This document shows, one piece after another, positions 1,273-41,221 of a DNA stretch of 64,000 nt. A program made the position numbers and the translations under genes. Numbering within the stretch: position 1 is the first letter of the stretch; every line of letters starts with the position of its first letter. The notes below the pieces were generated by a model. It searched no databases. It saw nothing but the letters and a program-made list of their open reading frames with translations, and was not told the origin of the DNA. The stretch is taken from positions 35,963,725 through 36,027,724 of the forward strand of contig NC_069126.1 of assembly GCF_026914265.1 (NCBI RefSeq). Direction: 5' to 3'. Source of the stretch: Mya arenaria (Eukaryota; Mollusca; Bivalvia; Myida; Myidae).

Positions 1273-1346
1273 CTTTTCCATTTCAACATAAATCTCTTCA
1301 AAGAATTCATCATAGTGCTGCTGAATTTCCATTTCATCCATTTGGA
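1273..1346 (-). other. U2AF1: U2AF1 alternative exon, version B (74 nt)
   Basis: This reads [18 protein letters not shown] then IYVEMEK, with acceptor TTTATCAG and donor GTAATT. It keeps the canonical HYDEFFEE core of animal U2AF35 but is one residue shorter at its end (EMEK against EMEEK or ELEDK). It lies about 1.8 kb downstream of version A in transcript order and is interchangeable with it in phase. It is probably the ancestral-like form by sequence; which version is used where cannot be read from DNA. Confidence 0.85.
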
Positions 1347-4300
1347 CTGATAAATAGAAAAAAGGATAATACGTAACATTGTTTCAGGGAATTTGCCTTG
1401 AAAATTAACATATCACTGAGGTAGCAGTAATCTCCTAGTAGGAAAATGCATTCAAATGCCTACCGTAACAATATTTATCTTTCTTGGGCCGTATTTATAA
1501 AGCATCTTAGAGAAAAAAACAGCTTCATAATAAAAAAATCCTTATTATTCACATTTAACCCCCCCTCTACTGTTCATTAAATTCCCTCAAGAATTCATAA
1601 TGTAGACAATTTTTTTCACATTAAATTCAGCTTTGGAAAAAAAGAAACATTATTTTTTATTTAATTAAAATTTAAACCTTACTTTCTTTACAAAAACAGC
1701 CTCTGAAACAGAACTTTCAAATTCATTAATTTTAACTCCAAGAAAACTAGAGGGCTTGAAAGATTTTTTCTGAACTTCTGAAAGATATACATACAAAAAA
1801 ACATGCCTACATTTTTGAACCTTTACATGTATCTCATGTACCACTATCCATTAAATAATTTATTTCAATAATGTTTCGCATCAAATTAGGATCAAACATA
1901 AACCATTGCTCAAAATAAGTTTTTTAGAGGCAGTTACATTCTCAAAGAAAAGTGAGCTTTATCCACATGAAAGAAACCCCACCCTGAATGTCTTATCAAA
2001 ATGAGAAGAATTGAATTAGAGATACTTTTTGAATGTATTTCAGAACAATTATGATTGGCTAATTTAGAATACATTTCTTAGGAAAAAAATGAAAATGCCA
2101 CTTTTTTCCACAACAGATAGCACAAAACTCATTTTTCGATGACAATATCATTCTTTTTTAAAATCTTCAATGTTTTCCTACTAGAAGACAAGCAAGCCTC
2201 AGTGACATCTAATGGCCGCTATACACCATTACACATGATACTCTACCTTTCAGTTCCCATAGTTAAGCTGGCTGAAAGTCAAACTGAATTAATAGCTGGA
2301 CCGAAACAAAAAGTCTACAAGTGAAAACAACCATGAACCTGCTTCAGATATTCATATCAGATATGGATGGATACTTTGTTAATGGATACTGGACAATAAA
2401 TGATGTGCTGACCCATGAGTGGCCATGACCATTTGTGATTTGAACAAATGTTTTATTTCACGCTTTCCAGTCTGTCTTTAAAATATGTCTCATCAAATCC
2501 TGATGAACTCACTGTTCAAAACAATGCGTAAATTGAAACATAATTTCACTGTTCATTTATGTTAATCTGTTAAAAAAGCGAATGTAAACACACCAAGTGC
2601 TGGATGGAAAAACCTTGGGTCAAAATCTGTAGTGATTTTCCAATCAAATATCAATTAATCAAAAAAATAATTACATAACTTATAAGCATGAAATAAAAAA
2701 GTCTTTGTTTCAGTGCAAAACTTGTAATATGTTTTACCTCGTGAGCACCAAATAAATATTTCACTCGAGGCAAAGCCACCACTGAAATTCAACGTTTTGA
2801 GCTCACTTGGTGAAATATATTGTTGAATTACACTTTCTCAAACAGTTATTCAATACATAAATTGGGTAAAGGTCATGGACTGCTTATCATACTATATTTA
2901 TAATTTGCTAGAAACAGGAAAACTAAAATGTGCACATAATCCTACCACTGAATTTTTACTTGTGTAATTATAATTTTATTAATAATATCATCCGAAACTA
3001 TAGTTTCTTTGATATTCTGAATAAAATGAAATGACAGGAGTGTGTGATAAATGAAGCAGATTCAACCAAATAGAATATTGAGGTCTCGTGTCTGGGTTGC
3101 CGTGGCAACAGACCTTATCTTCCAGCTCACAAAAAACTTCCTCAAAAAAGTTGTCAAAAGTCTGTTGTGCCTCCACCTCATCCATAGTTACTGAAACAAT
3201 ACATAGCAACAAGAAGTTACTGAAACAATACATAGCAACAAGAAGTTACTGAAACAATACATAGCAACAAGAAGTTACTGAAATAGTACATAGCAACAAG
3301 AAGTTACTGAAATAGTACATAGCAACAAGAAGTTACTGAAATAGTACATAGCAACAAGAAGTTACTGAAATGATCCAAAACAACAAGAAATCTTTATTTT
3401 TTTTAAAGTTGTAAATAACATCATATAAAAATGTAAAATAGTACAAATGTGTATATGTATAAAACATGTAAAACATTTTTAGGGGCTTTACCACTTCAAA
3501 TAAATTGCAGTACAATTGTAGGAAATTTACATAAATTATTTAAAATTAGTTATTAACTTGCTCTGTTCAACAAGGAGTTCTGATAATTTCATAAAGGAAG
3601 TTTGGAAGAACATTACTCCCTAGAACTGGGCTAAAACTTCCAAATTTGATTCCTTGAAGTTAAAAAAACATTGAAAGTTTTGCTTCTATTGTTAAATGCT
3701 TGAAAGTTTAAATTATTAAAACCTATTGTCTACATTACACATACTTTTTTGTCACATTATCAATCAGTCTTGAAGTAAAAGGAATTATCATGATAATTTT
3801 GTGAAGCTGGCAAGTTATAGTTGCAATTTTTTTCATGCTGAACTAGTAGTTGAAAAATAGAGGAAAATATTGCACTTATCAAGATACTAAAATTTCCACA
3901 ATTCTTCAAAAACTTCAAATATTGATGGTAAATTCTTTAATAATGTTAGCCATGGATCAACAAAGGGATACCACCAACATAACTGGACAGCAATTTACAC
4001 ATTTTTATGACAAGAATTAACGATTAACATACATTATAAAACACAAGTCATTAGTCAAGTGTTTATAACATAATGACTTTTGTTACGTATATGTATTTAC
4101 TATTATACAGTTTATTATATAATACACAGATGAAAGCATTTTTGACCATATTATGACTTCTAATAATATAATATGCTTTAACTATTTATAGCCAAGAACA
4201 ATTTTGACAAATCAGATAAAACAAAGGAACAATTATTTTACTTTTTCAACCCTTGTTTGTAGTATTTTTGCTCAAAAAAGTGTAGCGCTAATTTCTTTTC

Positions 4301-5533
4301 ATTTCTATCAACCTATGTGTTCAGTACATACTGTGAGATCCGTCAGCTGTGAGGGCAGCATTCTGTGGGTTAAGGTAGAGGTTCTGCAGCAAAACAGTCT
4401 GAAACAATGTAAAATATAGCATATACACTCTATGCATGAGTGCAGATGTCAACACAAAATAATCTTGCAATTAAAGTGTATGGAAATTGTTTTTGCATCT
4501 TTCCTGCTTGTTTTTAAATTGGGAAAGTTTAAACGAAATAGAATCTTTGCATAGTATTTATTTAAATGAAAGCATTTGAAAATAAATGTCTCAAGGTTTT
4601 GAAGCATTAAATAATGGCTTTGTTAGCTCTGCTCTCATCAACAGGAATCATTTGGGAAAATCATGACTGCCAGTATTGGATTTAAAGGTATCATCGTTTT
4701 CTACGTGACAAAACCACTCAACTGTCAGTGTAAAGCTAGACTGTCCTAGGTTTTTTTTACAAAATTGCAATGAAAACATGCTCTGTTTTGCTTATATTAT
4801 TTGCAAACAAGACTATTGTTGTAATCATTCTAATATGATTGTCAACCAATTTCTCGTAAAGAAAATAATAAATTATAATATATTAATTTAATATGTAAAA
4901 TAAAAGTAGTCTTCTCAAGACATCAATATATACCTGACTAAATGTTGGTTTGTTGTGCAATCTTGAACATCTTTCTCCGTGTCTGCATGCTCCGATTTTG
5001 AAGTAAAATGAGCAGTTGACTCTGAAATATTAAAAATGAACAATTATAATATATCATGGATGGGTGTGTGATGGGATGACGCCATTATTAATGCAATATG
5101 CCTTCACCTGGTTACTATGTAAACTAACAATAATAATTAATGAATGAATCAATAAATAACTGTTTTATTTTCAACATAAAAAAGCTAAATTAATGAAACA
5201 AAATTCACTTCGCATTGTTCATTTTTTATTTTATGATTAGTTACCCCACAAAATGATACAACAGCTAATAAGTGCGTTTTCCTGAAAACATTCAGGAAAC
5301 AAAGAATCTAGAAACAATGACAACCAGGTACGAACTGAAGTGAGTACGCAAGTGATACTTTAACGTCGAAAAACGACACCACAAAGAGCAATCAATAAAT
5401 AAACTATCAGGTCATAAAGTAAATTATATCCTGAGATGTTGTTTTACACATACTTTTATTACTTATGAACCGTATAAACTGTAAATTACTTGTCCTTTTC
5501 TGTTCCAAAAATCGATGCAAGATATTCGGCCAT
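1273..5533 (-). CDS. U2AF1: U2AF1 (U2AF35), small subunit of U2 auxiliary splicing factor, 3' part outside window
   Basis: Nuclear splicing factor that recognises the AG of the 3' splice site as partner of U2AF65. Exons read on the minus strand: 5490-5533 (start codon 5531-5533, [14 protein letters not shown]), 4934-5021 (first CCCH zinc finger, [18 protein letters not shown]), 4332-4398 (67 nt, [11 protein letters not shown]), then two alternative versions of the next exon at 3114-3190 and 1273-1346 (FDNFFEEVF or YDEFFEEIY), which begin the UHM/RRM. Splice phases match throughout: exon 1 ends with two bases, exon 3 with one base, and both alternatives restore phase 0. The residue order follows animal U2AF35 closely, so identification is very secure. 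The rest of the UHM, the second zinc finger and the RS tail should lie left of position 1; I found no further exon in 1-1272. The unusual points are the duplicated exon and the minisatellite over its acceptor. Confidence 0.96.
1347..3113. other. U2AF1 intron between alternative exon versions
   Basis: AT-rich non-coding DNA. A fragment near 1487-1590 begins gggccgtatttataaagcat, which resembles a dispersed repeat seen again near 7077 and 12525. A segment at 2735-2830 with ctcacttggtgaaatatatt is related in reverse orientation to one at 44160-44240, suggesting another dispersed repeat. I see no other exon. Confidence 0.4.
3114..3190 (-). other. U2AF1: U2AF1 alternative exon, version A (77 nt)
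   Basis: After the single base A left by the upstream exon it reads [18 protein letters not shown] then VFCELEDK. The acceptor is TTTCAG and the donor is the weak GTCTGT. It ends with ELEDK, the usual family length, but has TFDN where the family has HYDE. It encodes helix A of the UHM, whose acidic face contacts the U2AF65 ligand motif in known structures. Its 77 nt leaves remainder 2 on division by 3, as does the 74-nt version B, so joining both would shift the frame. Its acceptor lies inside the 29-bp minisatellite. Confidence 0.85.
3186..3388. repeat. 29-bp minisatellite over the acceptor of U2AF1 exon version A
   Basis: Units of 29 bp start at 3186, 3215, 3244, 3273, 3302 and 3331, with a degraded seventh at 3360. 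Read on the gene strand, each unit ends in TTTCAG followed by TAACT, so every unit contains a 3' splice-site AG with a short pyrimidine stretch. The AGTAACT left in each unit resembles a branch site for the next. The two units nearest the exon have TATTGTTTCAG; later units have TACTATTTCAG. Confidence 0.9.
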
Positions 5534-5737
5534 CTTTGTTGTGGTCTATTGATATTGATCAACACGTCCACACTCGAAACGGTTGCTCAAAGTTCCACAA
5601 TCCGTAAATGTTGAGGGGTAATATCATGGACCCATAGGTCCGTGGAAAATATATCTCTTTCCTTTCGCAGGGACTGTTATTTTCTGAGAATTTAAACGAT
5701 ATTTTACACCAGAGATATCAATAAAAAGTAAAATATT

Positions 5738-5962
5738 GTCCGGTAAGCGCAGTGGTTAGCGCACAAGCTTCTCACCTAGGCGACCCGGGTTCGATTCCCG
5801 GCTTGGGCGCATGTGAGTTTGGTTTGTGGTCACCAAGCCGGACAAGTGGGTTTTTCCGGGTTCTCCGGTTTTCCCCACAACACAAGACCACACTCTCGCG
5901 TAAAATCGTGCCAACGAGAGTGATTAATATAATAACTTGTTTCACAATCGTTCTAAAATAAA
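5738..5962 (+). mobile_element. tRNA-derived SINE, copy 1
   Basis: The tRNA-like head has an A-box-like agcgcagtggttagcgc and a B box ggttcgattcc. A conserved body follows (caagccggacaagtggg, ccccacaacacaagaccac) and the tail ends near tctaaaataaat. A second, more diverged copy in the same orientation lies at 48141-48392, so this is a dispersed family and not a tRNA gene. An open frame across the head and body is a by-product of the element. Confidence 0.85.
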
Positions 5963-19500: not shown

Positions 19501-22500
19501 AGGCATTGATATACAGGGTTCAATGATGTTAATTGTTTTAATTACTTTTGTTTACAGAGCTAGAAGAGGATCTGGAATTTGCTGTTCGAACAATTCGGGA
19601 TGTCAAGGACGATGAATCAGCAACTGTATGGGTTTTTAAAATATTGTTTTATTAGGCCACAGTAGATATAAAGTTTTTTTGTTGTTTCTTACCCACATTT
19701 TAGATGTGGGTGGGTATTTGTTTCTTTTTTACCTCCCTATTATTGAACACCATGTCAAAAAAATATGACCATCTTAGAGGCTAGTATAGTTTCATAGAGT
19801 CATAGGTAATTTTATGCATTATGTTGCTACCTTGAAGAGAAATTACTATTTTATTAAAATACATAAAAGTTTTTGTTCCAAGCTAAACTGATATTTCATT
19901 TGTTTACTAATTACAAACTTTAACTCTAAAATGTTGACTAGACTTGATCCTGTTCTTTCTACTGTATTATAAAAAAAGTTTTAAGTGAATTTGAATTAAA
20001 AGCTCTTCACTTTTACTTCAGATGGAACTTACTTCATTTAAATGATATAATATGAGATGTGACAAAACTTGTATTTTTTGCTTGAATGAAGCGGATTTTT
20101 GGAGTTTTGATACAAAATACCATTGATTTAAAACATTGGTTTCTCAAGACCACACTCACACCAACAATGTGATTAATATGGTGTTGGTATGACTTGTTTT
20201 ACAATTGTTAAAAACGTTTAGGCTAAACTTTTTACACTAAAAAATATTTTGTTCACAGGCACGGAAGGAGGCATCACAAAAGGCTCAGGTGACAAAACAT
20301 CCAGAGGTGGTTGATGACTTTGTACGGAACTTTCTCGTCCGAATGGGCATGGAGAGGACCCTGGATTGCTTCCAGACAGAGTGGTATGCTGAAGCTGTGA
20401 TCAGTATTTATATATAGCATAGCAATATTAAGGAGCTGCTAGTGTAACACCAATGTAGGGCCATGGCGAAGACCCTAAACTGATATTGGAAGGAGTGGGA
20501 TGCAGATTTGATGTTGTCAATCTATACATCATGGACAGTAAACATCAGATTAGCTCTGTAAGGCATCTGTATAACATAGACCATTGAATTGACAGCTTCA
20601 AGTTTAATGCTCCTATAAGTGAAGACCGAAAAAACAAAACAAACTTGATGTGTCTGATAATGGGTAGCTAATTGTCTCCTCTTGTTATAAGAATATCCTA
20701 ATATAATACATGTTTACTGCTGATTTCAAATGAAAGAAAACAAACAATTGGTAGGCTAAGTGAGAAAAATGGCTATAAAAGACCTGCTAAATTTTGTTTA
20801 TGGTTTAAGATGTTTACCATTGTATTATTAAAACATTCCTTGGTTACATTCTGCAGGTATGAGCTACAGCAGCGCGGCTACCTACATGAGGAGGATGTGG
20901 GCGTCGTTCCGGACATCTACTCACGCAACCAGAACCTTGACAGTGAGATCAAGTTCCTGAAGGGGGAGGTTGAGAAATACAAGGATGCTGCTCTGTAAGT
21001 GAACATTTTAGTTTTCTACAGTATTTCTACAAATATTTACATATGTATGGTTCTGTGTAGCAGTAGTTAGTCTACTTTTACTGCAGTCAAGAGATCCTAT
21101 TCAATTCAATTCAGCAGTGACTTTTTGTTACCGTATCCTTAAAATGTAAAGCATACTGGGCCCCGATAATAGGATATCTTGGTCGTAAACCTTATGACTC
21201 AGTCAATGGCTCAGGCTCAATGGTAAATGTCCTTACAATATTTTAATTGAAAGGCAGCTATTGCCTAAAAGGGAGTTACGCCTTGAAAGTGACATCGATC
21301 TTAATTGAAATGGGGCCCTCCACTTTAAGACAGTCTTAAGCTTGTCTGTTTTTGTGTGTTGTAAAAAAACTTATACCTTGGCCATAACTAAAAAAAAAAT
21401 CAAAGTACATTGTATACATATTGCCAGAGACAATACACACACATATAAGCTAACATATAGCTTTATTTAAATATGGAGTTATGGCCCCAGTTAGACTTGA
21501 AAAAGCTTGTTGGTTTTCGTTAGCAAGCGCTTTCGTTTAAAGTTAATAATATGTCAGACACACTCCCTTGATATGCGTTTTCTTTTTAATGTATTTCCTA
21601 TAATGTTGTTGTTTGTAAGTGAAACTCAAATGCATTGTTTAAGGGAAATGACATCAAAATAAAGACAATGTCACATTCATGTTCAATGAAATACAGTTAT
21701 ATGATTTCCTGTTTACAGTAAAGCAAAGGACCTATATGTGAAGCTGCGTAAAGAACGGGACTACCACCGGATGCATCATAAACGTGTCGTCCAGGAAAAG
21801 AACAAGCTCATCACCGACATTAAGAGGTACACTTGTTTAAGTTACAATTAACATGATGCCAAGGGCACTCTGCTTGACGGAGTTTGTTTGTCAGAGATGC
21901 TCAAAGTACTCCATTGGATGATAAAATCATGTGCTATTATCTTCTTGACCAAATCTAAACCCTCGATTGATTAAATAAATCAGATCTTGGCTCTGTTAAT
22001 TTGGATATTGCTAATAGCAAAGAAATGAACACATTTTGCTTTGTTTCTTTCAAGTCTGTACATATTTGCCATGGCTTTATAGGTTTAAACAATTACTTAA
22101 ATGTAGGTTGCACCAGAAAGTTTAGATAAATCTGGCGATGATCGTTAAATAAGCATTGCTAAATGACTGTAAATCAGCATTACAAAATAATTGTAAAATT
22201 TGCGTTGCTAACTTATCTAGGAATAAGCATTGTAAAATAATTGTTAAATTAGAATTGCGAAATTATTGATAAATTAGAATTGCAAAATGATTGCTAGAAA
22301 AGAATTGAAAAACGACAGGCAAAATGACAGTTAATTCAAGCATTGCAAAATGACAGGTAATTTAGCATTGCAAAATGACAGGAAATTTAGCATTGCAAAA
22401 TGACAGTTAAGACAGGTAATTTAGCATTGCAAAATGACAGGTAATTTAGCATTGCAAAATGACAGTTAATTCAAGCATTACAAAATGACAGGTAATTTAG

Positions 22501-25500
22501 CATTGCAAAATGACAGGTAATTTAGCATTGCAAAATGACAGGTAATTTAGCATTGCAAATTGACAGGTAATTTAGCATTGCAAAATGATCATCAAATTTA
22601 CATTGCAAAATAATTTTTAAACAAGCATTGCAAAACGATTGTTTAATTAGAATTGCAAAATGATTGTTTAATAAGAATTGCTAAATGACAATTAGTTAGT
22701 ATTGCAAAATGATTAAATAAACATTGCAAAACAAAAAAAAAATAATACCTTAAGCACTTTTAAAATGATAGTTAAATTAGCAATTGTAAAATAATAGTCA
22801 AACGTTAAATAAGCATTGCAAAATAATTGTTCAAACAGCATTACAAAATGATCGTTAAATTAGAAAAATTTGCAAAATGAGTAAATTAATGATTGTTAAA
22901 TAAGCATTGCAAAATGATCGTTCAATTAGCAATGCAAGATGCCTAGTTGCATAATGCAACAGATTGTCAGAAAACTAAAAGAATGTCAGTGTTTATAAAG
23001 ATCTATACTAACTGGTCTAAAAAATATAATTAAATGTTCCATTGACATATTATTTTACCGATTATTTCATCATTATTTTCTCTCATGCAGATTAAAGCGC
23101 CACTACACCCAGTATGAGCCGACCCTTCAGCAGCTGAAGAAGAAATACGAGGTCGCAATGAAGGAAAAGATGCTGTCGAAACTGGAGCGGGACCGTGCCA
23201 TGGGGCAGGTCACTGGCCTGCAGAGCACACTGAAGAGTATGGAGTCATTTAAGGGTGGCAGCGCTAAACGAGGTACAACACTTTTAGGCAAAAGTGTGCA
23301 TTCAATGTAGATCTTAAGAATTACTTCTTAAAACGACAGAGAGTACTGAACATGGATTACCCAGTAAAAAAGTTTTTAAGCGATTTTGGGCTGCATTTTT
23401 TTGGAAGAATAATTCTAAATAAACACTATTGCAGCTGGTGAGGCAAGTTTGATGGGTTCGACCATTCAAATCTGCCTGGGTATGGTTATGCTGACAGTGT
23501 ATTGTTCCCGACAAATTTGGTGCTGAAACTCAGCAGCGGTTCCCAATCAAAAACCAAACTGAAAATGTTATTCCCAAATTGTTTTGGAAAAAAGCCATTA
23601 TATATAATTGAAGAGACAAAGTTCATGTCATTCTTTTATAAATGTTTTAAATTGTTTATTTCTAGGCAAAATTAGTATTCCCATAAATAGAATTCCCAAT
23701 TTAAGTCAAATGAACACAGCTTTTCCAATCAGATAGGCCCTGACACCCTTTCCAATATGGTTGAAAAAACCATCTGGCTGTGCCGATAGGAATGTGAGGG
23801 TGATTTCTCTTTCTAATTCAATTTAAATTATTTTCTTCAGCTGGTGAGGCCAGTATGATGGGTTCGTCCACGCGCATCTGCCAGAAGGGCGGGGTTGCGG
23901 TAGATGTTGAAGGGCGGGGACCAACTCAGAGACAGCTGCAGGTAGAGCGGACCATGGACGTTCAGGAACTGCCAAAGGACTTCAAGAGACATGCAAATGT
24001 AGGTGGAGCGGAATTATCAAGATCTGATGCATTGATAAGTGACAGATGTAAAAAACATAACATGCTAAAAAGCATTCCCTTGTTTACTTCTTTCAAAAAG
24101 TATAAAAAAAGTAGATTGTCAAATTAATATTTAAAAAATTCAGCATTTATATAATATCTTGCTAATACTAAATAAAGCAACATTCCTTTCAGGACTCTGA
24201 GTTCCCACATGATATGGGTGTAAACCCGTACCTCGGGATGGCCAAGGTGCCGTCCGGTCACCTGGCGAGGTCTGGGGGATTCCGATTGTCCAATACATTC
24301 CAGGCACACTCGCACCCCATTAGCGGGTATGTAAAGCTCATGTCAAGGGTGAAAGGAGAATGGTTTGTTGTGTCATTAAAAAAGAATCAAATAGAACCTT
24401 CTTCACTTTCACTCAGTTTTTTAATTACAATGGTTGATGTTTGATGTTAAATTCTACAAAAAAACAGCTCTTATTCTCTAATTTTCATTTTCACTACCTT
24501 AGTGGTAAAGATTCGTGGAATTGCTAAATATTTATGTTGAAAAACCTAAAGAAATAGTGTCAATAGCCACATGATCAATTTAACTATTTTTAAATAGCGA
24601 TTTTATCTTGTATTACAGATTGGCATTACACCCGCGCAAACAGATCCTGGCCACGAGCAGCGATGACAACACTTGGAAGATGTGGGCGGTGCCAGGGGGT
24701 GACATTATAATGACGGGGGAGGGGCATACAGACTGGGTCTCAGAGTGTGACTTCCACCCTTCGTAAGTATATCATTATGCATCTATGATAATGTGATGTG
24801 AACTGTAGTATGCAACCTGCATATGCCCAGTTCAGCTGTTGATTTTGTGTTGAAAACAGTTGGCGACTGAAAATCGTTTGTAACCTTGTCACAGTGTGGG
24901 AATGACATGTAATTACAAAATATCTTTAATCTGTTTCTAGCCATTTAAGCCATATTTAAACTTTACTATTCAATAAAGTTAACTGTTTTTGTTACAGAGG
25001 CACAAAGTTAGCTACATCTAGCGGTGATACAACAGTAAAGATCTGGGACTTCTCGAAGGCCGAGTGTGTGCACACTTTCACAGATCACACACATGCTGGT
25101 ACGTCCAACACTGCTTTAGCCCCAGTACTATAAAGAACTAATAGTAGTTGATTTTTGTGGAGAAATAAAATTTTGCCTTTTTCTTGCTTCAGTAGATCAA
25201 CAAGTTTTGTAAAACAATATGAAATTAGGCTATAGTTTTTTTAATAAAAATCATAAAAATAAAAAAAAAGTGTTCAAGAAAAATACCCATGATTTGTATA
25301 AGATTTTTACAACCTGAACAGAGCTGAACATATGGGCATCATTTGTGTTAATTTGCTTCAAAATGCGCCAATTAGATATAAAATCAAACATCTGTTCGCA
25401 TCAGTATCAATACAAGTACCATTAATATGATCAATTTATCGTTGTTTGCCACTTAACCGCTGTAGAATAAACTTCTACACAGTAATCTCCCTTGATGAGC

Positions 25501-27518
25501 ATATTGTTTTATAATACAAAAGGATAAGTTCCCTTTGTATTATAAAACACAATGCTCATGTAGTGCTTTGTAGTGGGTTTTTTTATCGATTAAAATCTGC
25601 ATTAATGATAAAGCCTGTCTTGTATGTTAAATAAATGTACATGTATTGTGCAGTTCAGTGTGCCAGTACACTTAAACAATTGCCATTACACTTTATTAAA
25701 TGATGGGTGTTCAGTACACTTCTGTAGCTCTGCCTGAAGTTATTGTTATCTAAGTGTAAGATGGGTTACCAATCATAGGATTCATGTACAACTGCATGTT
25801 TATTTTCTCCGTCCATTCTCCAGTTTGGTGTGTTAACTGGCACTCTTGCGGGGACTTCCTGGCCAGTAGCTCAATGGACAACACGGCCAAGGTCTGGGAC
25901 CTGAACAGCGTGCGGTGTCGCTACACGCTCCGTGGACACACTGACAGCGTCAACAGCATCGAGTTCCTGCCCTTCTCGAACACCCTTCTCACATGCTCTG
26001 CTGATAAGACACTCTCGTTGTGGGATGCAAGAACAGTGAGTACAATCATAAATGAAATGAAATAAAGATTAATATATTGATTTTAAAAACTGACCAAATT
26101 TATTGAAGTAATTTCTTAAGAATGAAAACATTGTTTTCGGCCAAGTGCATGGTAGCAATATCTTATCATAAATGTATCAAATTTTATGCACATATTTCAA
26201 CATTTAAAATTTTTAATGCTCCATTTTTTTTTATTTCAGGGCCTCTGTGCACAAAGCTTCTATGGACACATGCATTCTGTCAACTTTGCTACATTTAACT
26301 TGAGGGTAAGTAATTTAATTCAAGTTCAACATGGCAAAGTCAATAGTTAAGTAATTAAATGATTGTGTCTCCGACTTGTACTACAGTGAAGAATGGACTC
26401 AATTTCAACCAATGTACGGCAAGGATAATTCTGTATTAACAAACAGTAATTGGCATAAGTACTGCTAACTCATGATTTGTTACTCTATTATCCAGCATAC
26501 GAATTACCCCCACATTTCATGTTATCCAAGGAGAACTCTTGCCTGTGTTTGAACATGGGAACTAACCTGCAAATGTTTCTTTATTTTGACATGCATTTAT
26601 TTTTTTCCATATTATAAACAATAAGGCTATTAACTTGCACCTAGTTTTTCCATTAAAATGAAGCCATTAGGTGTTAAAGCAAGTGTTTGAAGTGGCAACA
26701 TATGTTTGTGAGAAATTGTTTAAATCAATGTTTGATTTCCTTAATCCAGGGCGACACTGTAGCTTCATGCGACTCATATGGCACAGTAAAACTTTGGGAC
26801 GTCCGCCAGGGGGCGCCAATGGTCAGTGTGGACTGTGGCCCACACCCGGCGAACCGTGTGGCCTTTGATCCCGCAGGGCAGGTGCTTTCAGTTGCCAGCA
26901 ACGACAGCACCGTCAAGATGTATGAAGTGGCCAATGGAAGGGTATGTTGTGTTGTAATTATATGTCTGACCAGAGATTAAAAAACAAAACAAATACATAC
27001 AGGCAACGTAAGCGTTACTAGTATCCTGTTTTGTCTTCTGGAGTTATATCAAATGTGACAGTTAAAACAGCTACAATGCTTTGTCTTCAGAATATTCTGT
27101 AAAATTACTCAACTGACCCTTCAACAGTAAACTTGCATTGTTCAAAATAAAGCAATATTTTGAAAAACCTGATAATAGTGGATCAATATGCAACTGATAA
27201 TTGTTAATAATAAAGAGTCTATTTTCATAATAACACGGGTAAATCAATACATTTAACTTGTCATCTGCATGATAACCAAGTGTTTATTCAACTGTTTCAT
27301 TGCAATGGTATGATCCTCATTATCTACTTATTTTAATAGAAATTTTGAATCACTTAAATTTTAAAGTAATAAGTTAATCTAATTGATGTTTGATCTGCTT
27401 ATTCCAGATAAGTTCCCTTGTTGGACACGAGGATGCTGTTCAATGCCTGATATTTGACCGGTCCGGCGAGTACATGGTGTCTGGGGGCAGTGACTGTACA
27501 ATCAGAATCTGGTCATAA
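16516..27518 (+). CDS. SPAG16: SPAG16/PF20, central-pair WD40 protein of motile cilia, complete
   Basis: Homologue of Chlamydomonas PF20, which bridges the central-pair microtubules of motile axonemes. Exons: 16516-16555, 17252-17329, 19558-19625, 20259-20383, 20857-20994, 21719-21826, 23091-23272, 23841-23998, 24193-24326, 24619-24762, 24998-25098, 25824-26035, 26240-26305, 26750-26941, 27408-27518 (stop TAA). These give 618 residues; human SPAG16 is about 630. The N-terminus has an acidic DSDDEFEYEEVP segment, then NFLVRMGMERTLDCFQTEW, which matches the LisH-like region of the family. Charged coiled-coil-like exons follow (LYVKLRKERDYHRMHHKRVV). Seven WD40 repeats occupy the C-terminal half, with repeat ends WKMWAV, VKIWDF, AKVWDL, LSLWDA, VKLWDV, VKMYEV and IRIWS. 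AATAAA lies only 32 nt after the stop (27550-27555) and again at 27609. A 12-nt microexon and a 45-nt duplicated exon may add isoforms. Confidence 0.96.
17611..17622 (+). other. SPAG16: Candidate 12-nt SPAG16 microexon
   Basis: The sequence ccttag, then ATGACCCAACCA, then gtaagt has an acceptor AG and a consensus donor around 12 nt. It fits phase 1 on both sides, giving DDPT and changing the following E to K. Skipping it also keeps the frame (VAPELEEDL) and is closer to the family. The upstream pyrimidine tract is weak. This is a guess from splice-site form only. Confidence 0.3.
17746..17822 (+). repeat. Two-copy tandem repeat of about 39 bp
   Basis: The block tgtgcatcaggctgtccaaa and its continuation to aaatatgctt occur twice in tandem, almost identical, in SPAG16 intron 2. 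The closeness of the copies suggests a recent duplication. Confidence 0.85.
18160..18630 (-). mobile_element. Composite repeat: inverted ends AAAGGGACTGTACACC with internal tRNA-like head
   Basis: The left end taaagggactgtacacc and right end ggagtacagccccttttag are imperfect inverted repeats. Inside, on the minus strand, is a tRNA-like segment (agttcagtggatacgacgct, B box gggttcgaatcc at about 18275-18287). It could be a SINE carried within a MITE or a SINE family with palindromic ends. Related ends occur at 44941-45267 and 53425. Confidence 0.55.
20457..20520 (+). pseudogene. Decayed tandem copy of the end of SPAG16 exon 4
   Basis: The intron just after the exon ending at 20383 contains ggccatggcgaagaccct followed by ggagtgggatgc, matching the exon's gggcatggagaggaccct and agagtggtatgc. 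Translated, it reads MAKTLN, a stop, then YWKEWDA, against MERTLDCFQTEWYA. The offset is about 117 bp. It is a broken copy that cannot serve as an exon in this form. Confidence 0.6.
22140..22945 (+). repeat. 25-bp minisatellite in SPAG16 intron 6
   Basis: The unit is gcaaaatgacaggtaatt followed by tagcatt. Copies in the core (about 22330-22600) are nearly identical, while copies on both sides diverge strongly (attgttaaattagaattgc-like). This is the gradient expected from repeated unequal exchange or slippage at the centre. The array spans about 0.8 kb. Confidence 0.85.
23435..23479 (+). other. SPAG16: Tandem partial copy of SPAG16 exon 8, potential 45-nt cassette exon
   Basis: This lies 406 bp upstream of the exon starting at 23841. 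It copies the exon's first 45 nt at 36 of 45 positions, including the acceptor (gcag then ctggtgaggc). It reads GEASLMGSTIQICL against GEASMMGSSTRICQ. A donor-like GTATGG follows exactly where inclusion would be phase 1 to phase 1 and add 15 residues with no stop. It could be a working alternative exon or an early fossil. Confidence 0.6.
25495..25559. repeat. Imperfect hairpin in SPAG16 intron
   Basis: The arms atgagcatattgttttataa and ttataaaacacaatgctcat enclose a short AT/GGA loop. It may be a MITE remnant or a cruciform-prone sequence. Confidence 0.6.
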
Positions 27519-29509: not shown

Positions 29510-32500
29510 CTAATATGTGTCAAGCAATGCATGTGGGTTCTCATTATCAATGTCTGCCCAATATGGCATGATTAATGGCAACTTCTCAAACAAGGGAAGT
29601 AACAACGGTTTAATCAACTGGAACAGGTGGTTAGATCCCTTGGCTGACAAGTGCAAGCCATCATTCAACATGTCTTCCCAACCCTGAAATGAAGAGGAAC
29701 ATAGATTTACATCCTGTTAAGGTATTCAACCAACAAAAAAGGTAATTAATTGTCTTATTGTTGATTGCATACCTAACATAAATGTTAGCAGTTTTACAAC
29801 AGTACTGTACAGTACAATAACAGCTGTAAGTTACAAAACTATATCGGGAACAGTAAAGAATATGAAAATTGCTTTCCAAAATTGTTAAAGGAAAGCAGTA
29901 ATTGATATTAGAGAAGAGTTCTAGTATACACCTGGTTGGATTAAATAAGTCAAATTGTTTTATTATTCAAGCTATACTGTGAACATATTTGTTTTATCAG
30001 CATAAGTAGCATATTTTACTCTGATTACTCTTTATAGAATTCAGTTTTAGCGAATTCTATTTCAGGTGACAATAATTAGTGTCTGTGTATACCATAATGT
30101 TTTATATTGTGCAAGGATTATGAATTTAGAAGATCAGACCCACTACATTTGTCATCTTTCTCCACAATATAGACTTTCAATCACCTAATGTTTTATGCAT
30201 TCTCAAAGATTATGAATTTACTAACTTAGGCCTTCTTTTTGTGACCATAATTAACAATATATAAGCATTTGATCCCGATATATATGCATATAAAAATGAA
30301 CTAACAACATCAGGCTGGCATCATATGCACTCATCATCAAAAAAGCTTGTTTTTTTCGGCCATGTACAATCGATATTCAATTTGTTTACCAATGCCCAAA
30401 ACAAGGTTTTCTTTCACTTTATTTCAATTTCAGAAGTGTTGTTTGAAAATTTCTTGTTGATTGTAGTTGAAATTTAACAGTTAACAGACATGATAATTCC
30501 CAATTCCATGGTAAAGTTAATTTTCTCAAAACTGAAAAACTATCCAACATTGGATTGCTCAAAACCCTGTGTGTGAAATACAGAATTTAAACATAACCCA
30601 CCTCTTGCGCCATCATGGAGCTATAGAGATCGATAGATTGAGTCCCAAATTCCTTAGCTACGGCCATACTGGCTTGAGCATAGGGCTTGGTGGCTGTGTT
30701 GTATTTCCCAAACGGAATACCTGTAACCAAACAAATACTTACTTAGCTGTATAATCTGATATGCTTTACAATGTAATAACATGTTAATCATCATTGTGAG
30801 AAAATCTTTGTAAAAATAAAATAAGATTTTGGTAAAAAGATTAATAAAATAAAAGCATGAAGTAAACTGAATCGAGTAGGACAATCTTCATATCTGCATA
30901 CTATCAGAATGTCACAAATCACAAACTGAATTAAAAAAATATCAATCTTATATCTTAAGGCTGGTTTTCATTGCCTTTACAGTGATTCTAGTTGTCGTTG
31001 AAGAAGAAAGCCCACAAATACATGTATATCTTTAGAAAGACTATATTCAACCTAAACAGTTATTTATCAACATTTTCAAATTTTATGGGAAAAACAAAGC
31101 AAAAATTCCCAATTCCAAGGGTAGGTCATTTTCCCTACTGAAAAAACAACAACCTGCATTTGTCGATTTGATAGCTAAAAATATTGTGTGTAAGTTATAG
31201 AATTAAAGCATTGTTCATCAAACTTACTTCTAAGGCTACATTCAGCCTCCCACTTGGAGTCCACACAACTAGGCGGAGAAATGACAGCAATCTTCTGCCT
31301 CTCAATACCGATGTCCTGAAATACATCAATAAAGATTTACAGGCATGGCGGTGACGATGGCTAAGTGGTACATGGTTTATATTTCTAATATCAAAAAAAT
31401 ATTTTCAATTATCTATTTTATTACCTTTTATCAAAACAAAAGTGAGGGTCAGGATTTAAAAATAGGATAGATCAGGTAACCACAATCACAACATTATTTT
31501 ATTTTTTGGCCTTACAAGCAGATATTGTAGGATGTCTCTCATGTTTTGTGAGAACTCCTCCAGAGGCACATGTTGTTTTGGACATCGAACACTGTCCACT
31601 GAATCATTGGCTCCAAGGAAAACTGTTACCATGGCAACAGAACTTGCATCCTCTTTTGTGATCAGTTTTGGCAGAATGAGCTTACACCAGCGTGTATTGT
31701 ATCCTGAGAAACCCCTATTCACCACATCACATTTTCTGAAATAATAACAAACAAAAATCGCAAATGTTGAAAAACAAGAGCCGCACGAGCAGGTGTCAAC
31801 ACTGGTCCGTTTCTATCAAATGATTATGGAGCAAATATGTTCCATCAAGTATTTATATCAGAGTGACTGAACTTTCAACCCATACATAATTATATATATT
31901 TGCAAATTCTCACATCAAAAAATTGTACCACTTTTTTATTATTTTATATCTTAAATGGTCTTCAATTTATGGTCAACGTTATGACATTTTTGCTTTAAAA
32001 TATACATATTTTTTTATGTAAAGACCATACCTTTGTAAACATGTATGAAGCCAACTTACCTTTGAAGGAAGTCGGCTATAAGAGCAGCCCAACATCCATC
32101 AGAGCTATTGCCATACTGAAATGACATAAGGTGCGAGTAGTCATTCTAATTTTTTTATTTTTTTAAGTATGACTAATGCACCAGTCAGTTGTAACCACGG
32201 CCCCCCCAGGTCAGGGGGTTTACCGGGGATAGCCGGGGAAATGGGCCGTGTTTTTACCTTTCAGGTGGCCCCGCAGGGCTGGGTGAATGCAGTGGTTTTG
32301 TCTTCGCTCTAAATATAGCTGGGAATGGGCTCGTCCCCGCAGGGTGATGATTTTAGCTGGGGTTGGCTGGATCAAAAGTCCCCGCTATTCCACGGACCTG
32401 GGGGGGGGGCCGTGGTTACAATTGACTGGTGCATAAAGATGAGTGTTCTCATCAATTAAAGGGGTACATCACATTAAGGTTTTGGGTGGTCTGGAGGTAT

Positions 32501-32774
32501 TGATACCCCGTCTATATATAGGGGTATCAATACCCCCAGACCACCCAAAACCTTTATGTGTCAGATGTACCCCTTTGGTTATCATATATAATACTGTTAG
32601 TTTTCTTAATACATGTATATACACACTGTACCTCAATACCTGGATATACAATATTGATCTTTATCAATCATCTATTGTAACTTTGTAACCTTTCGTAATA
32701 AATAATTTAAGTTTAATATCTACCTGAGTGAGTGAATCTCCAAATAAAAACACTTTAGGCCAAGGCTTTGCCAT
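29510..32774 (-). CDS. IAH1: IAH1-like SGNH/GDSL esterase (isoamyl acetate-hydrolysing esterase 1 homologue), complete
   Basis: Predicted ester hydrolase of the SGNH family. Exons on the minus strand: 32724-32774, 32060-32115, 31516-31735, 31228-31315, 30602-30720, 29510-29683 (stop TAG 29510-29512). These total 708 nt and 235 residues (human about 248). Catalytic blocks are visible: FGDSLTQ (nucleophile S), CDVVNRGFSGYNTRW (block II G), FLGANDS (block III N) and NDGLHLSAKG (D and H). PKQHVPLEEF and MPYWADID also match the family. The frame stays open upstream of MAKPWPKV to an earlier ATG at 32907-32909. That would add 45 residues rich in R, S and hydrophobics with no acidic residue until about position 39. 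It resembles a mitochondrial presequence but could be leader sequence. The gene is head-to-head with the acyl-CoA dehydrogenase. Confidence 0.94.
32177..32433. mobile_element. MITE with 31-bp terminal inverted repeats and TAA duplication (PIF/Harbinger-like), copy 1
   Basis: The ends TGCACCAGTCAGTTGTAACC... and its reverse complement (TGCACCAGTCAATTGTAACC...) match over 31 bp with one difference. TAA flanks both sides (32174-32176 and 32434-32436). The interior is G-rich (ccggggatagccggggaaat). It lies in IAH1 intron 1. The 3-bp TWA target duplication and end structure fit PIF/Harbinger MITEs; no transposase is present. Confidence 0.8.
32458..32576. repeat. Near-perfect long hairpin of about 119 bp
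   Basis: Arms of about 53 bp (ggttttgggtggtctggagg, ggtattgatacccc) pair with ggggtatcaataccc and ccagaccacccaaaacc around an 11-base loop (gtctatatata). Only a few mismatches occur. It is probably a foldback-type MITE and sits just beside the Harbinger-like MITE. Confidence 0.85.
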
Positions 32775-32909
32775 GTTGCTGCTGTTAGTAGATTCACCAG
32801 AAATTGATCTCTGCAGAGACGGCCAAGTCCAGAACGAGTTTGCTGGAAAATACCGTATTGTCAGTAGATTTTTTACCAATAATAGTGAATAGCGGGCTCT
32901 AATGGACAT

Positions 32910-33072
32910 TAGAAAATAATTGCTTTCTCACGTTCATCCGTACTTCATTGATTATTAATTAGTTTATGGATTGTATCCCACTTAGTTCACCGCATGACAG
33001 TCATCCAGGGAATGCCGGTCGATTTTAGACCAATCAAATTTGCCAAATTATTCAGTCGGTGTTGTGTAAACA
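32910..33072. promoter_or_regulatory. Putative bidirectional promoter between IAH1 and the acyl-CoA dehydrogenase
   Basis: The start codons of two oppositely transcribed genes are 298 bp apart (163 bp if the longer IAH1 N-terminus is used). The interval is locally less AT-rich toward the dehydrogenase side. No clear TATA box was seen. Shared control is inferred from spacing alone. Confidence 0.5.
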
Positions 33073-36000: not shown

Positions 36001-39000
36001 CTAGTATTTAATTTTTAGTGTCCCAAATAATACTTACCTTGTTATATACATTTTAATTTCAGGTTTGGGAGTGACAGAGTCAAACGAGAGTTTTTGGCCC
36101 CGTCCATTTCAGGGGACATGGTGGCTTGTTTAGGGGTCAGTGAAGTTGGCGGAGGTTCAGATGTTGCCAGTAAGTATTCTTGAAATGAACATCCCAAACA
36201 TAGGTGGCAGTTTCAGTCTGGAATGGTGATAAATAATATATATTTTTAAAGCTGCACACTCACATATTGAACGTTTTGACAACTGTTTTATTTTTTGTCT
36301 TGGAACGAGCCAATTTTTGCAAAAAAGCATCGAAACTAGTGATTTAAGACTGCTGACAAAAAATCAGATTGAAGGTTTGCATATTAATGATTAAGTATTG
36401 ATGTTTTATGCATTTTTCCTAAGGTGTTAGTAATGCTTTTAGCCATAAATCATAAATTTTCCAACTTAATTATGAAAAACTGGGATCTGATCTTTTGTCA
36501 GCAGTCTTATATCACTGGTTTTCAGATATTTACGCAAAAATTGGCTCATTCCAAGACAAAAACTAAAAAAAAGTTGTGAAAACAGTCCATCTGTGAGATG
36601 CAGCTTTAAATGATTACCAGTATATATGCAAAAAAGAAGGTATCCAAGGCTGTTTCCACACTTTGCCCAATAAACCTGAACTGTTCAAATGAGCACAAAC
36701 CTGAACTTGCCTCGCAAAAATGTTGTTAAAATAAACTGTTTTTTTTTGACAAATCTAATTTTTTATCCTATTTTAGCATGGTATTTTTTTACATGTAGCT
36801 CATTGAGGGGGAGAATGGTGTTTGATACCTTCTTTATGTGTAGAATATGTATATAATCATACATGTATGATTATCCCTGACTGATACTACCACCTATGAT
36901 ACTAAAGTGTATCAGTGTGTTAACTTGCATATCAGATATAAATACAATATTATATGAGCATTATAGTTATTTGAAATGTGATAAATCGTATGCTTCAATG
37001 TCTAAAACAGTATTTTGAAATGTAATTTTATAATTCTAGTTTTTAGATATGTAGATCACACTATACTGATGCTTGTACTATGTTAAAAAATGAACTGCAT
37101 GGATGTGGCATTTTTTAGTTAGGCAACGCCTACTGCCCCTTGTGGCCCAGTCCACAAGTTTCTTTGAATACCCAAAAATAGTGATCATCTCCGCACATTT
37201 TCAAAAGTAAAAAACAATTTTCGTCATATCTTTTTTTTTAAATCACTAATATCTACGATAACACTTGAGTAGATACACAAATGTTTAAAGTGTGGCACTA
37301 TTTCAATTAAAGATTATATCATTGTTTTAAGTGGAAAATTCCATTGTATTAGTTTAAAACCACTGTCTCAGAACTGGGGACCCTTCTCCAAATTGAAAGT
37401 ACAGTGAGGGCTGTGGTTAGTTACCTTAAACAAATTATACATAGTTTTCAGTTGTGATCCCCAATGTAGTAACATCTTTGCTTTTCAACAGTACTAAACA
37501 GGAGAATATTTTATAATAAGTAAGAAAGGCTCCAAACGAGTTGTTTTGAGCGAAATACATATTTTAATTTTGTAACAAGTGACTGTTTGTTTATAATTGC
37601 AGGTATTCAGACCAGGGCAGTAAAGAAAGGCGGTGATTATGTCATAAATGGGGGTAAAATGTGGACAACATCCGGCACACAGGCAGACTGGATGTGTCTT
37701 CTCGCCAACACGAGTGATGGGCCACCCCACAGAAACAAGTCGCTTATATGTCTACCAATGGATGCCAAAGGTAGTTTTTTTCTTTGCTGAATTTCTGTTT
37801 ATTTAAGTGATTGCAGAAATTGGACACAAGACCCTTCTTGTCACTTCTTTCATTTTGACAGAAATGGTTTCTGTTCCATACTACCGGGTGGTATTCAACA
37901 GATTTTTCATGTCGTCTGTGTAGGGTTTAAGGCAGATTTTAAAAAGGACAGGGTGCTGCAGAAGAGGAACAGGAGCTTATGGATAAAAGGGCACATTGTA
38001 TCGGGCTGTGAAGAACTTGGAACATGATGAATTTGGCAGAAAATTTAAGAAATTGTGTTTAATTCAAGTAATACTAGTATTAGGTTTCAACTGCCAAATA
38101 TTTATATTTTGTATTTATGATCACATTACAAGTTTTGATCAAAACAAAAGAATGATTTGATTATCTTAAACATTTAATTATATTTAGGCGGAAGGGAGCC
38201 CATGCTTGTCTCCATGAGTGCAGAAGGTTGCTGCCAAAAAAACGCCCAGGGTGTAGCACCCTTCCGTAGCACTTAAGCTTAAAAACCGTATCTGTGAAGC
38301 ATAGCTGAACACATAGGTTTCATGGCTGCATTGCCATATTCACTCTCTTACATATTAAGAATCTGTTTTTAAATCTACTAACTTTGTTCCTAAGTTTATT
38401 AGCACAATTTCTAACCCAATAACTATTCAATTGACCTATGAAAGGATTATATTTCATCAATAAATAATAGCATATGTTCATTATACCATATGTTCATTAT
38501 AAACACCTGACAATCAATCTTCCGTTAATTCACTTAATTGGTATTTAATTAATATATTTTTTCAGGTATTGACAGGAGTATGACTATCGATAAGCTGGGA
38601 ATGTGGAGTTCTGATACGGCCCAAGTATTCTTCGACAATGTGCACGTGCCGCAGGAGTATGTGATAGGCGAAGAAGGAGAAGGATTCACGTACCAGATGG
38701 TCCAATTTCAGGCTGAGAGGATGTGGGCTGCAGCTGGATGTAAGTTGCTTGAGGCAACCTTTACAGTCATGTGAAGTTGCTTTTACATTCCCATCTTCAA
38801 GGATTAACATATCAGATACAGAGTATTAATTTTGTAAATAGTTCTCCCTCACTCCCCCATAATGGTAGGAGAAAGTTTGATGTTCCACTTGTCATTTTTC
38901 AGAGTTATTGCCCTTTGTTTTTTTACATATATAGAAAATAGAAATAAATAAAACTGTTGGGCAGATTTTGATGAAACTTAACAGGATGATAAGTACCAAG

Positions 39001-41221
39001 CCTAGTTGTGCATTAACGTAAGCATATTCAGCTTGTATTATTTTCGCCCTTTGATATTTTTACAAAAAGTGCACAGAGATCTTGTCTGCATGTTATCTAT
39101 GTCATGATTAAAGGATTTCATTCTATCTTGGCACAGTGTCCCAACATTGTCATGTACTATAAATCTTTAATGTACTTTTGCATCAAAACTTCATGCAAAC
39201 AGTCAGCGATGTATACCGCAATGGTTATCATGCCCCATGAAAAAAATATAAAGATCACTCAATCACTTACATCTTTTAAGCTTTTATCTCTAAACTTTTT
39301 GGAGAATCCACCATCTGTAGATAAAATGAGAATACTTGTATAAAGGAAATGATTTCAACGACATTCAGGTTTGTTGCCACTACAGAAGTTAATCTGGGAC
39401 ACCATTGAGTACACACGGTCTCGGAAGGCGTTCGGCCAGCCGATACTCAACAACCAGACCGTACATTTCAGGCTGGCCGAGTTGGAAACTGAAGTGGAAT
39501 TGTTGAGGTCACTACTGTACAGAACAATAGGTGAGATATTAATTGAAGTAGATATAATTTGCTTGAATATTGAAGGCAAATTTTAGAAATACTGTCTCTG
39601 TCCTTCAAGCGGGGGTGTGAGGCTGTGTACAATGCCAGAGGTAGGATTTCGTACTTAAATAGTGTTTTGTAAAAGGTTTAGATAGATTGTACTATATGCG
39701 GAATCAATTTTGCAACAGATCTGTAGACAATTTCCCAAAACAGACTTGATGACAGTTTTCAGTACATTATTTTACTGTTTATACTTCAGAATGTGAAGAC
39801 AGCAGTTTAAAATAAAGTGGCATTAGCTTAAACTCAATATTACTGAGAATATTACTGAGATTAGCTGGTATAACAGGCTTAACAACATGTAGTTGGTTGC
39901 AATGTAGCATCCATGTGTAAGCTGAAGGGGGATGGGGGTCCTTCAGGCAAGTTAAAGAATATCTTTTGTTACTTTTTAAACTTGAAATGTTGTCTATATA
40001 ATCAATGTGTCAAACATTTTTATTGCTATATTTGTCCCTTTCCAGCTCTGTATGTAGCGGGTAATGATGTGACAAAGTTTGCGTCAATGTGTAAACTGAA
40101 GGCAGGGCGACTTTCTAGGGAGGTCACAGACGAGTGCCTGCAGTTCTGGGGAGGAATGGGTTTTACCAGCGACGTCCTTGTTAGCAGGTTCTACAGGTAA
40201 AGTCTGCAGCATAAAATGTTTAAGAAATTTAACCAAAAAATAAGCTAATTCTGTCGTACATACATGTGGCGCCTTAAGCCATGATCCTAAATTTTGTTTT
40301 CTGTTGAACCTATTATGCCTATACAATTTTGGCATAATTTGAAGGGGTGTTGCTTGCTGTCAAGTTATATGCAAAATAATAGACAAAAAAAACATTGTTT
40401 ATAAGGTTATTGCAGTTTGTGTTTTTGCTCTTTATTTTCACTGAAATCAGACGATTTTGAAGGCCAAAAGATCTGGTTTATAATAATTCTTTTGGCGTTA
40501 TTTTTACACATGTTTTTTTTACATACCATACCCTTCTAAAATATAATATAGAACCACAAAAATTCACATAACTGTGTATCTGATGCCTTAAATACATGTA
40601 GGATGCTTTGTTATTGCATATCGAACATGTGTTTCTGGTCATGTGACAAGTGCTTGAAAACCCCCAAATTACAAGCCCCATTTAAGATGAGTCACCCACA
40701 ACAATGCGCCACTTCTTATTTATTTTATTGTATGGTTTACAAAAAGTTCATTATGCCATCTCAATAATGCACAATCAAATATATAAGTATGCAAGAAGAA
40801 AAAGCAGTTTGAAAATAAATCATCATCAAAAATGCCATTTTTAGAGGACTATTTGACATTAAGAGATCTAAAATTACCCTTTATGACATTAGTAAACAAC
40901 GTCGCACACGCATTATGATGTAATGTACAAAAATGTGTTTTTCTACGTCCATTTTTCCACAAATTGATAATGTTAGGTATGCAAGAAAAAAACATAATCA
41001 TGTTTTTGCATTCTGGATGTTAATGTTAATGGACATAATGTTGTAATGTCTGGTAACAGATGCGATTACCAGCTGTTTAGCCCTTCAGTATGATTTTACT
41101 TCTTATTTTCAGGGATTTCCGCTTGCTTTCTATTGGTGGTGGAGCTGATGAAGTTATGTTGTCAATCATCTGTAAATACATGGATACCCTGCCCAAACTT
41201 ACTGCGAAAAAGGCCAAGTAG
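33073..41221 (+). CDS. Mitochondrial acyl-CoA dehydrogenase, LCAD/ACDH-6-like, complete
   Basis: FAD enzyme making the first oxidation of fatty acyl-CoA, passing electrons to ETF. Exons: 33073-33255, 34213-34333, 35436-35565, 36063-36169, 37603-37770, 38566-38739, 39369-39530, 40046-40196, 41113-41221. These give 434 residues, a normal length. The first 45 or so residues are rich in R, S, A and L with few acids (SRSRCLPLSTRPFASSQS), a typical mitochondrial presequence. Family blocks are YGGLGLDYSY, CLGVSEVGGGSDVA (ACAD signature 1), INGGKMWTTSGTQADW, KLGMWSSDTAQVFFDNVHVP, RKAFGQPILNNQ (FAD-binding region) and LQFWGGMGFTSD. The MCAD-type catalytic E loop is replaced by SIGGGADEVML, while QAERMWAAAG supplies a glutamate at the LCAD/IVD position. 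The donor of exon 1 (GTCAAA) is weak. Substrate length is not deducible. AATAAA lies at 42049. Confidence 0.93.
33540..34085. repeat. Cluster of tRNA-like SINE fragments in dehydrogenase intron 1
   Basis: A minus-strand B box (ggggcttgaacccacgac) lies near 33580. Plus-strand heads begin ggttagctcagttggttag at about 33668 and gttagctcacttggttaaag at about 33774, the latter with B box ggttcgatcccc near 33820. A further diverged head has B-box-like ggggttcaatctt near 34008. None is an intact tRNA gene. The opposite orientations allow a fold-back. Confidence 0.6.
34341..34805 (+). repeat. About 42-46-bp minisatellite in dehydrogenase intron 2
   Basis: Around eleven units of tgatgtcaaaataaagccaa, gattctatataagtgtggca-type sequence begin only 7 bp after the exon 2 end. 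Period and sequence vary between units, as in an older array. Confidence 0.85.
36247..36609. mobile_element. Long palindromic MITE of about 360 bp
   Basis: The ends taaagctgcacactcacat and atctgtgagatgcagcttta are inverted. Long inner arms also pair (ttgtcttggaacgagccaat with attggctcattccaagacaa; gacaaaaaatcaga with tctgatcttttgtc). It is non-coding and lies in dehydrogenase intron 4. Confidence 0.8.
39887..39928 (+). pseudogene. Partial decayed copy of dehydrogenase exon 8
   Basis: gcatccatgtgtaagctgaa and two following bases match the exon's gcgtcaatgtgtaaactgaa (40081-40102) at 19 of 22 positions, still reading ASMCKLK. Weaker similarity extends upstream (atgtag, ggt, atgt). It is about 174 bp upstream of the original and has no usable acceptor. 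Confidence 0.5.

Follow-up and report, generated by a model that had tools for sequence, protein, structure and literature searches.

The minus strand of the 64-kb window (the whole stretch of Mya arenaria DNA analysed, 64,000 nucleotides) carries the start of a U2AF1 (U2AF35) gene, with coding exons of 44, 88 and 67 nt followed by two versions of the next exon, referred to below as A (77 nt) and B (74 nt) (Table 1). Exons 1-3 join in frame, and A and B each continue exon 3 in frame, both ending in phase 0. The lengths, coordinates and frames given in the first-pass annotation, which described the 77- and 74-nt exons as phase-compatible with the 67-nt exon, are all correct. Its assignment of the gene to U2AF1 is backed by a Pfam zf-CCCH match (E 9.5e-08 for the A isoform and 9.7e-08 for the B isoform) and by two structural homologs. 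The S. pombe U2AF23 (4yh8) is matched over nearly the whole length seen (E 6e-31 for the A isoform, 6.4e-29 for the B isoform), and the chain 1jmt, which we take to be mammalian U2AF35, is matched at E 3.4e-11 (A isoform) and 7.2e-13 (B isoform), so that A scores above B with the former and below B with the latter. The features of the U2AF35 family encountered here are an N-terminal CCCH zinc finger and then the start of the UHM, collinear with U2AF23/U2AF35. The Pfam RRM models gave no match (E up to 1) to the N-terminal part seen. A tblastn search of the 64-kb window with the downstream part of human U2AF35 identified no downstream U2AF1 exons, the matches being the zinc finger of exon 2 (E 0.007) and chance ones at E of at least 1.0; the rest of the gene is outside the window.

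Table 1. Features of the U2AF1 locus (positions in the window).
Feature	Position	Strand	Basis or remark
U2AF1 coding exon 1, from ATG, 44 nt coding	5490..5533	-	joined frame; aligned with S. pombe U2AF23
U2AF1 exon 2, 88 nt, first CCCH zinc finger	4934..5021	-	joined frame; Pfam zf-CCCH
U2AF1 exon 3, 67 nt, single in the window	4332..4398	-	joined frame; duplicated exon in vertebrates
29-nt tandem array, 7 copies	3191..3389	-	TRF row 3186-3389, 5 nt into exon A; 96% matches
Alternative exon A, 77 nt	3114..3190	-	acceptor tttcag, donor gtctgt
14-nt palindrome GTTGCCACGGCAAC	3096..3109	-	4 nt into the intron after exon A; short hairpin with the donor possible, not significant against shuffles
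Alternative exon B, 74 nt	1273..1346	-	acceptor tatcag, donor gtaatt

Just upstream of the first U2AF1 exon (about 5735-5880), a tRNA-derived, SINE-like stretch was recognized by eye, with a box-B-like GGGTTCGATTCCCGG on the plus strand; ARAGORN calls no tRNA in this stretch. Elsewhere in the window, exons of a WD40 protein (20702-26980, plus strand; Pfam WD40 E 6.2e-23 at 25760-26065), which presumably resembles SPAG16, are preceded by two ORFs (20702-20998 and 22999-23310) that look coiled coil-like by eye. No family could be assigned to these ORFs, a weak PRD match (E 0.0062) being below the cut-off. On the minus strand, exons of a GDSL-type esterase (31486-32927), which we take to resemble IAH1, include a Pfam match at 31486-31812 (E 8.6e-05, below the curated cut-off) and an ORF at 32664-32927 assigned by eye. 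Acyl-CoA dehydrogenase exons follow on the plus strand (37524-40200; middle domain E 6.8e-10 at 37524-37790, C-terminal domain E 3.6e-09 at 39883-40200). No RNA families were found in the 64-kb window at gathering scores.

Homology and coding constraint of exons A and B

A tblastn search of the whole 64-kb window with peptide A finds exon B (E 3.1e-7), and the reciprocal search with peptide B finds exon A (E 2.95e-7), the other copy being, besides the own exon, the sole match below E 0.1 for each peptide. A and B are homologous, with a match far beyond chance. Being adjacent, homologous and in the same phase, with either alone keeping the frame, they have the properties of tandem-duplicated exons, and the E of 3e-7 between the copies bears out their original description as two versions of one exon. 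Neither a third copy of the A/B exon nor a second copy of the 67-nt exon (other matches at E of at least 1.4) was found in the 64-kb window. Exon A exceeds B by one codon, which the first-pass annotation had not mentioned; A has the length of chain 1jmt and B that of S. pombe U2AF23, and the one-codon difference falls at a point where the U2AF35 family varies. A duplication taking in the upstream intron was considered and rejected, since intron 3 and the intron separating A from B have a single same-strand match, of 12 nt (E 0.097).

With the extra codon of A set aside, the two exons differ at 26 of 72 nucleotides and agree at 14 of 24 residues, and among the 14 codons for the residues in common 8 show synonymous differences. 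The Nei-Gojobori (NG86) comparison yields a dN of 0.305 and no finite dS, which we read as saturation. Neutral evolution was simulated with the same number of changes as observed, the ancestor being either A or B and the gap having one of two placements. Each of the four resulting set-ups was run 100,000 times under a mutation model of our choice (AT-rich, with a transition bias). A stop appeared in 64-75% of the neutral copies per set-up. With the gap at D (14/24 residues observed), the observed identity together with an open frame was retained in 5 runs with B and 42 runs with A as the ancestor, and with the gap at the end (13/24 observed) in 8 and 58 runs, respectively, of 100,000 each; the observed BLOSUM score was reached in 0, 0, 1 and 0 runs of the four set-ups. 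Since at most 58 of 100,000 neutral copies keep the identity with an open frame, A is not a freely decaying copy. Both copies look constrained, and the pairwise comparison would also be compatible with a recent loss of constraint on one of them.

The comparison with chain 1jmt points in the same direction. Nine of its residues are kept in both copies (E73, Q75, D79, F81, F82, E83, E84, E88 and E90), while V72, V85 and F86 (and K92, if the gap is put last) are kept in A alone and H77, Y78, E80 and M89 in B alone. As each exon keeps 1jmt states that the other has lost, neither is simply the degraded copy. At nine further positions neither copy has the 1jmt residue, which tells against a reading of A and B as two working isoforms; A and B carry the same residue at five of these, and these shared departures would fit a duplication later than the split from vertebrates. 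Exon A also matches S. pombe U2AF23 at F78 and C87, which may be due to chance.

Going by the alignment, exon 4 is taken to encode helix A of the UHM, some residues of which would face U2AF65. The first-pass annotation had the exon pair swapping this helix. The two helix-A variants do differ, but F81, F82, E83, E84 and E88 are common to A and B, so that retuning is a better description than swapping. SPF45 has a glutamate, Glu329, on helix A. The UHM helix A is more acidic than that of ordinary RRMs and SPF45 Glu329 helps to form the tryptophan pocket, as stated in the sections of PMC7648758 drawn on here, and the S. pombe structure, in the corresponding sections of PMC5224494, has the alpha-6 helix running parallel with helix A. 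As both versions retain the acidic residues and phenylalanines of positions 81-84 and 88, both should still bind U2AF65, and the differences at 77, 78, 80, 85-87 and 89 would tune the U2AF65 binding or the contacts with the alpha-6 helix.

Acceptor array, reading frame and exon choice

Exon A is preceded by a tandem array of 29-nt units, also absent from the first-pass annotation, which holds seven TTTCAG/TAACT acceptors, the last of them being the exon's own. The possible exon starts are at 3364, 3335, 3306, 3277, 3248, 3219 and 3190, and the six upstream ones all read the same ten codons and then a stop. The AGs of these acceptors are the sole AGs inside the array, each unit opens with TAAC (checked for the last unit), which could serve as a branch point, and the own acceptor of exon A has 70% pyrimidine over -3 to -22. 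With its copies matching at 96%, the array probably arose recently. The window holds 28 overlapping rows of arrays with a period of at least 10, covering 4002 of its 64,000 bases, so it would be no great surprise for one to have expanded here by chance; whatever the origin of the array, its upstream acceptors would yield a stop. A further array at 62244-62459 (7.2 copies, 98% matches) has a 30-nt unit, similar in size to that of the array at exon A.

The lengths of A and B both leave a remainder of 2 (3n+2), so that an mRNA with both exons or with neither is out of frame, skipping of both leaving phase 1. The joined-frame reading agrees with the earlier statement that double inclusion shifts the frame. 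Exon B stays open in the frame shifted by A+B inclusion, and the premature stop would therefore fall in a later exon, outside the window. Frame-shifting and stop-bearing choices, as judged from sequence alone, lie within the splicing factor's own gene.

The reading that we favour, with a probability of about 55%, is that of an old tandem duplication of U2AF1 exon 4 in which exon 3 would be spliced to either A or B. The two resulting U2AF35 isoforms would diverge in UHM helix A and retain its acidic and aromatic residues. Transcripts with both exons or with neither would be expected to undergo NMD, and the use of any of the six upstream array acceptors would open a second unproductive route through its stop. 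In this way the 3n+2 pair could also serve to limit U2AF1 dosage, a role already suggested for the 67-nt pair of the human gene.

Several arrangements that might enforce a mutually exclusive choice, or that might govern the use of A, were examined. Steric hindrance as an exclusion mechanism needs a shorter intron than the 1767 nt that separate A and B, and is thus unlikely. A docking/selector arrangement was rejected, the longest complementarities between the introns (13 and 12 nt) being reached in 37 and 95 of 200 shuffles, respectively. The donors score 1.45 for A and 4.39 for B, and 1.22, 1.84 and -0.06 for exons 1-3. A hairpin hiding the donor of exon A was likewise dismissed: the pairing of the palindrome with the donor (-9.7 kcal/mol) is matched by 17 of 200 shuffles (z -1.34) and that of a longer stretch by 16 of 200 (z -1.26), neither being significant, and the donors of exons 1-3 and B, folded likewise, gave no hairpin signal. 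The palindrome fits the RFX X-box pattern; the strict form of this pattern occurs in the window only here, and a looser form is present at six places, including GTTACCATGGCAAC at 31625.

The alternatives to the isoform reading differ mainly in the role that they leave to exon A. B could be constitutive, with A kept mainly as a regulated poison exon whose protein version is rarely or never made, the unproductive mRNA arising from A+B or from the upstream acceptors of the array. The position of A behind seven acceptor copies (six giving a stop), the stronger donor of B and the frameshift upon double inclusion are all in line with this possibility. A pure poison exon, however, needs no protein conservation, whereas A keeps 14 of 24 residues at saturated synonymous divergence and retains 1jmt states lost from B, and we consider this explanation unlikely, albeit not to be discounted lightly. 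The array itself raises another concern, as it may simply spoil exon A: A would then be a recent relic, a real alternative exon ruined, in the lineage or in the individual, by a minisatellite that expanded into its acceptor. The apparent youth of the expansion, the abundance of such arrays in the window and the compatibility of the pairwise comparison with a recent loss of constraint speak for a relic; the intact coding part, last acceptor and donor of A speak against it, as does the pyrimidine stretch (70%) that the last acceptor keeps along with TAAC at the unit start. The weakness of the A donor (1.45) was discarded as a sign of decay in view of the scores of exons 1-3. On balance, a relic seems to us quite improbable.

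That A arose as an open stretch by chance, or through faulty assembly, is hardly credible. A single assembly window is the sole source of the observation, but the homology of A to B at E 3e-7 in a 64-kb window and the correct phase and AG/GT borders are not what such an origin predicts, and the divergence from B is too great for a haplotype or misassembled copy of it. On the more speculative side, the seven 29-nt modules, each with TAAC, a pyrimidine stretch and a single AG, might form a graded U2AF sensor by which U2AF1 gauges its own product. When U2AF is plentiful, splicing would shift towards the six acceptors with a stop or towards inclusion of both exons, and when it is scarce, A or B would be included on its own. 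The isoform switch and the dosage brake would then have arisen convergently with vertebrates, one exon further downstream. We regard this sensor reading as a long shot.

Comparison with known duplicated exons

Vertebrate U2AF1 carries two copies of the 67-nt exon 3/Ab (3a/3b), which give rise to the isoforms U2AF35a and U2AF35b (PMC5224494, PMC6547761, in the sections cited here), in agreement with the first-pass annotation, which placed the vertebrate pair at the exon preceding A/B. The same portion of PMC5224494 gives seven residue differences between the vertebrate copies, with changes to RNP2, helix A and a short disordered region, and describes the pair as kept throughout vertebrate evolution, with zebrafish lacking it. 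In human U2AF1, including both exons of the pair or neither puts the message out of frame and directs it to NMD (PMC6547761, PMC5224494), and the human U2AF1 protein has been proposed to promote double inclusion (PMC6547761), as these sections have it.

The Mya arenaria pair resembles the vertebrate Ab/3 pair, as described there, in that tandem homologous exons of the same gene, with lengths not divisible by 3, alter the UHM including helix A. In contrast to vertebrates, where the 67-nt exon 3 is copied, exon 3 is single in the window (one copy of the YRNPQN exon was found) and it is the next exon that is copied. The differences are also larger: 10 of 24 residues plus one codon, 77 vs 74 nt and an acceptor array, compared with seven residues in the vertebrate copies described. 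Being a different exon with larger differences, A/B are not members of the vertebrate pair, although they would work likewise. As vertebrates duplicate the preceding 67-nt exon, the Mya arenaria pair seems to have arisen by a separate duplication, of the exon next to it on the downstream side, much as the first-pass annotation had proposed. The contrast that it drew with vertebrates holds for the choice of the exon and was overstated for its consequence, helix A being altered by the vertebrate pair as well (PMC5224494, sections cited).

No description of a duplicated U2AF1 exon 4 was found among the matches listed in the open-licence literature (titles and abstract starts). The viral and prokaryotic contigs contained no relatives of the B-isoform protein or alignment, as expected for collections without animals. 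Should both exons be in use, a core splicing factor would have gained mutually exclusive exons on at least two occasions, in adjacent exons that both help to shape helix A of the U2AF-binding domain and whose lengths render double inclusion unproductive. It would then be testable whether selection in U2AF1 favours an isoform switch, a dosage brake or both. The array before A would in addition be a natural experiment in the choice of U2AF35 between near-identical AGs.

Unrelated duplications at different exons of orthologous human and Drosophila genes are an established pattern, exemplified by calcium channels in the part of PMC9741552 drawn on here. The U2AF1 case is alike in that the duplications apparently arose independently and at different exons of the gene. 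It is unlike in concerning a core 3' splice-site factor, U2AF1 having 0 occurrences in the main text of PMC9741552. The other relevant group is formed by the genes of RNA-binding proteins that regulate themselves by AS-NMD, including human U2AF1 (PMC6547761, sections cited), with which the Mya arenaria gene shares a frame-shifting exon combination within the factor's own gene. Here a different exon is involved and an acceptor array leading to a stop is present as well, and the self-regulation would be an analogous one, as predicted from the exon lengths and the array.
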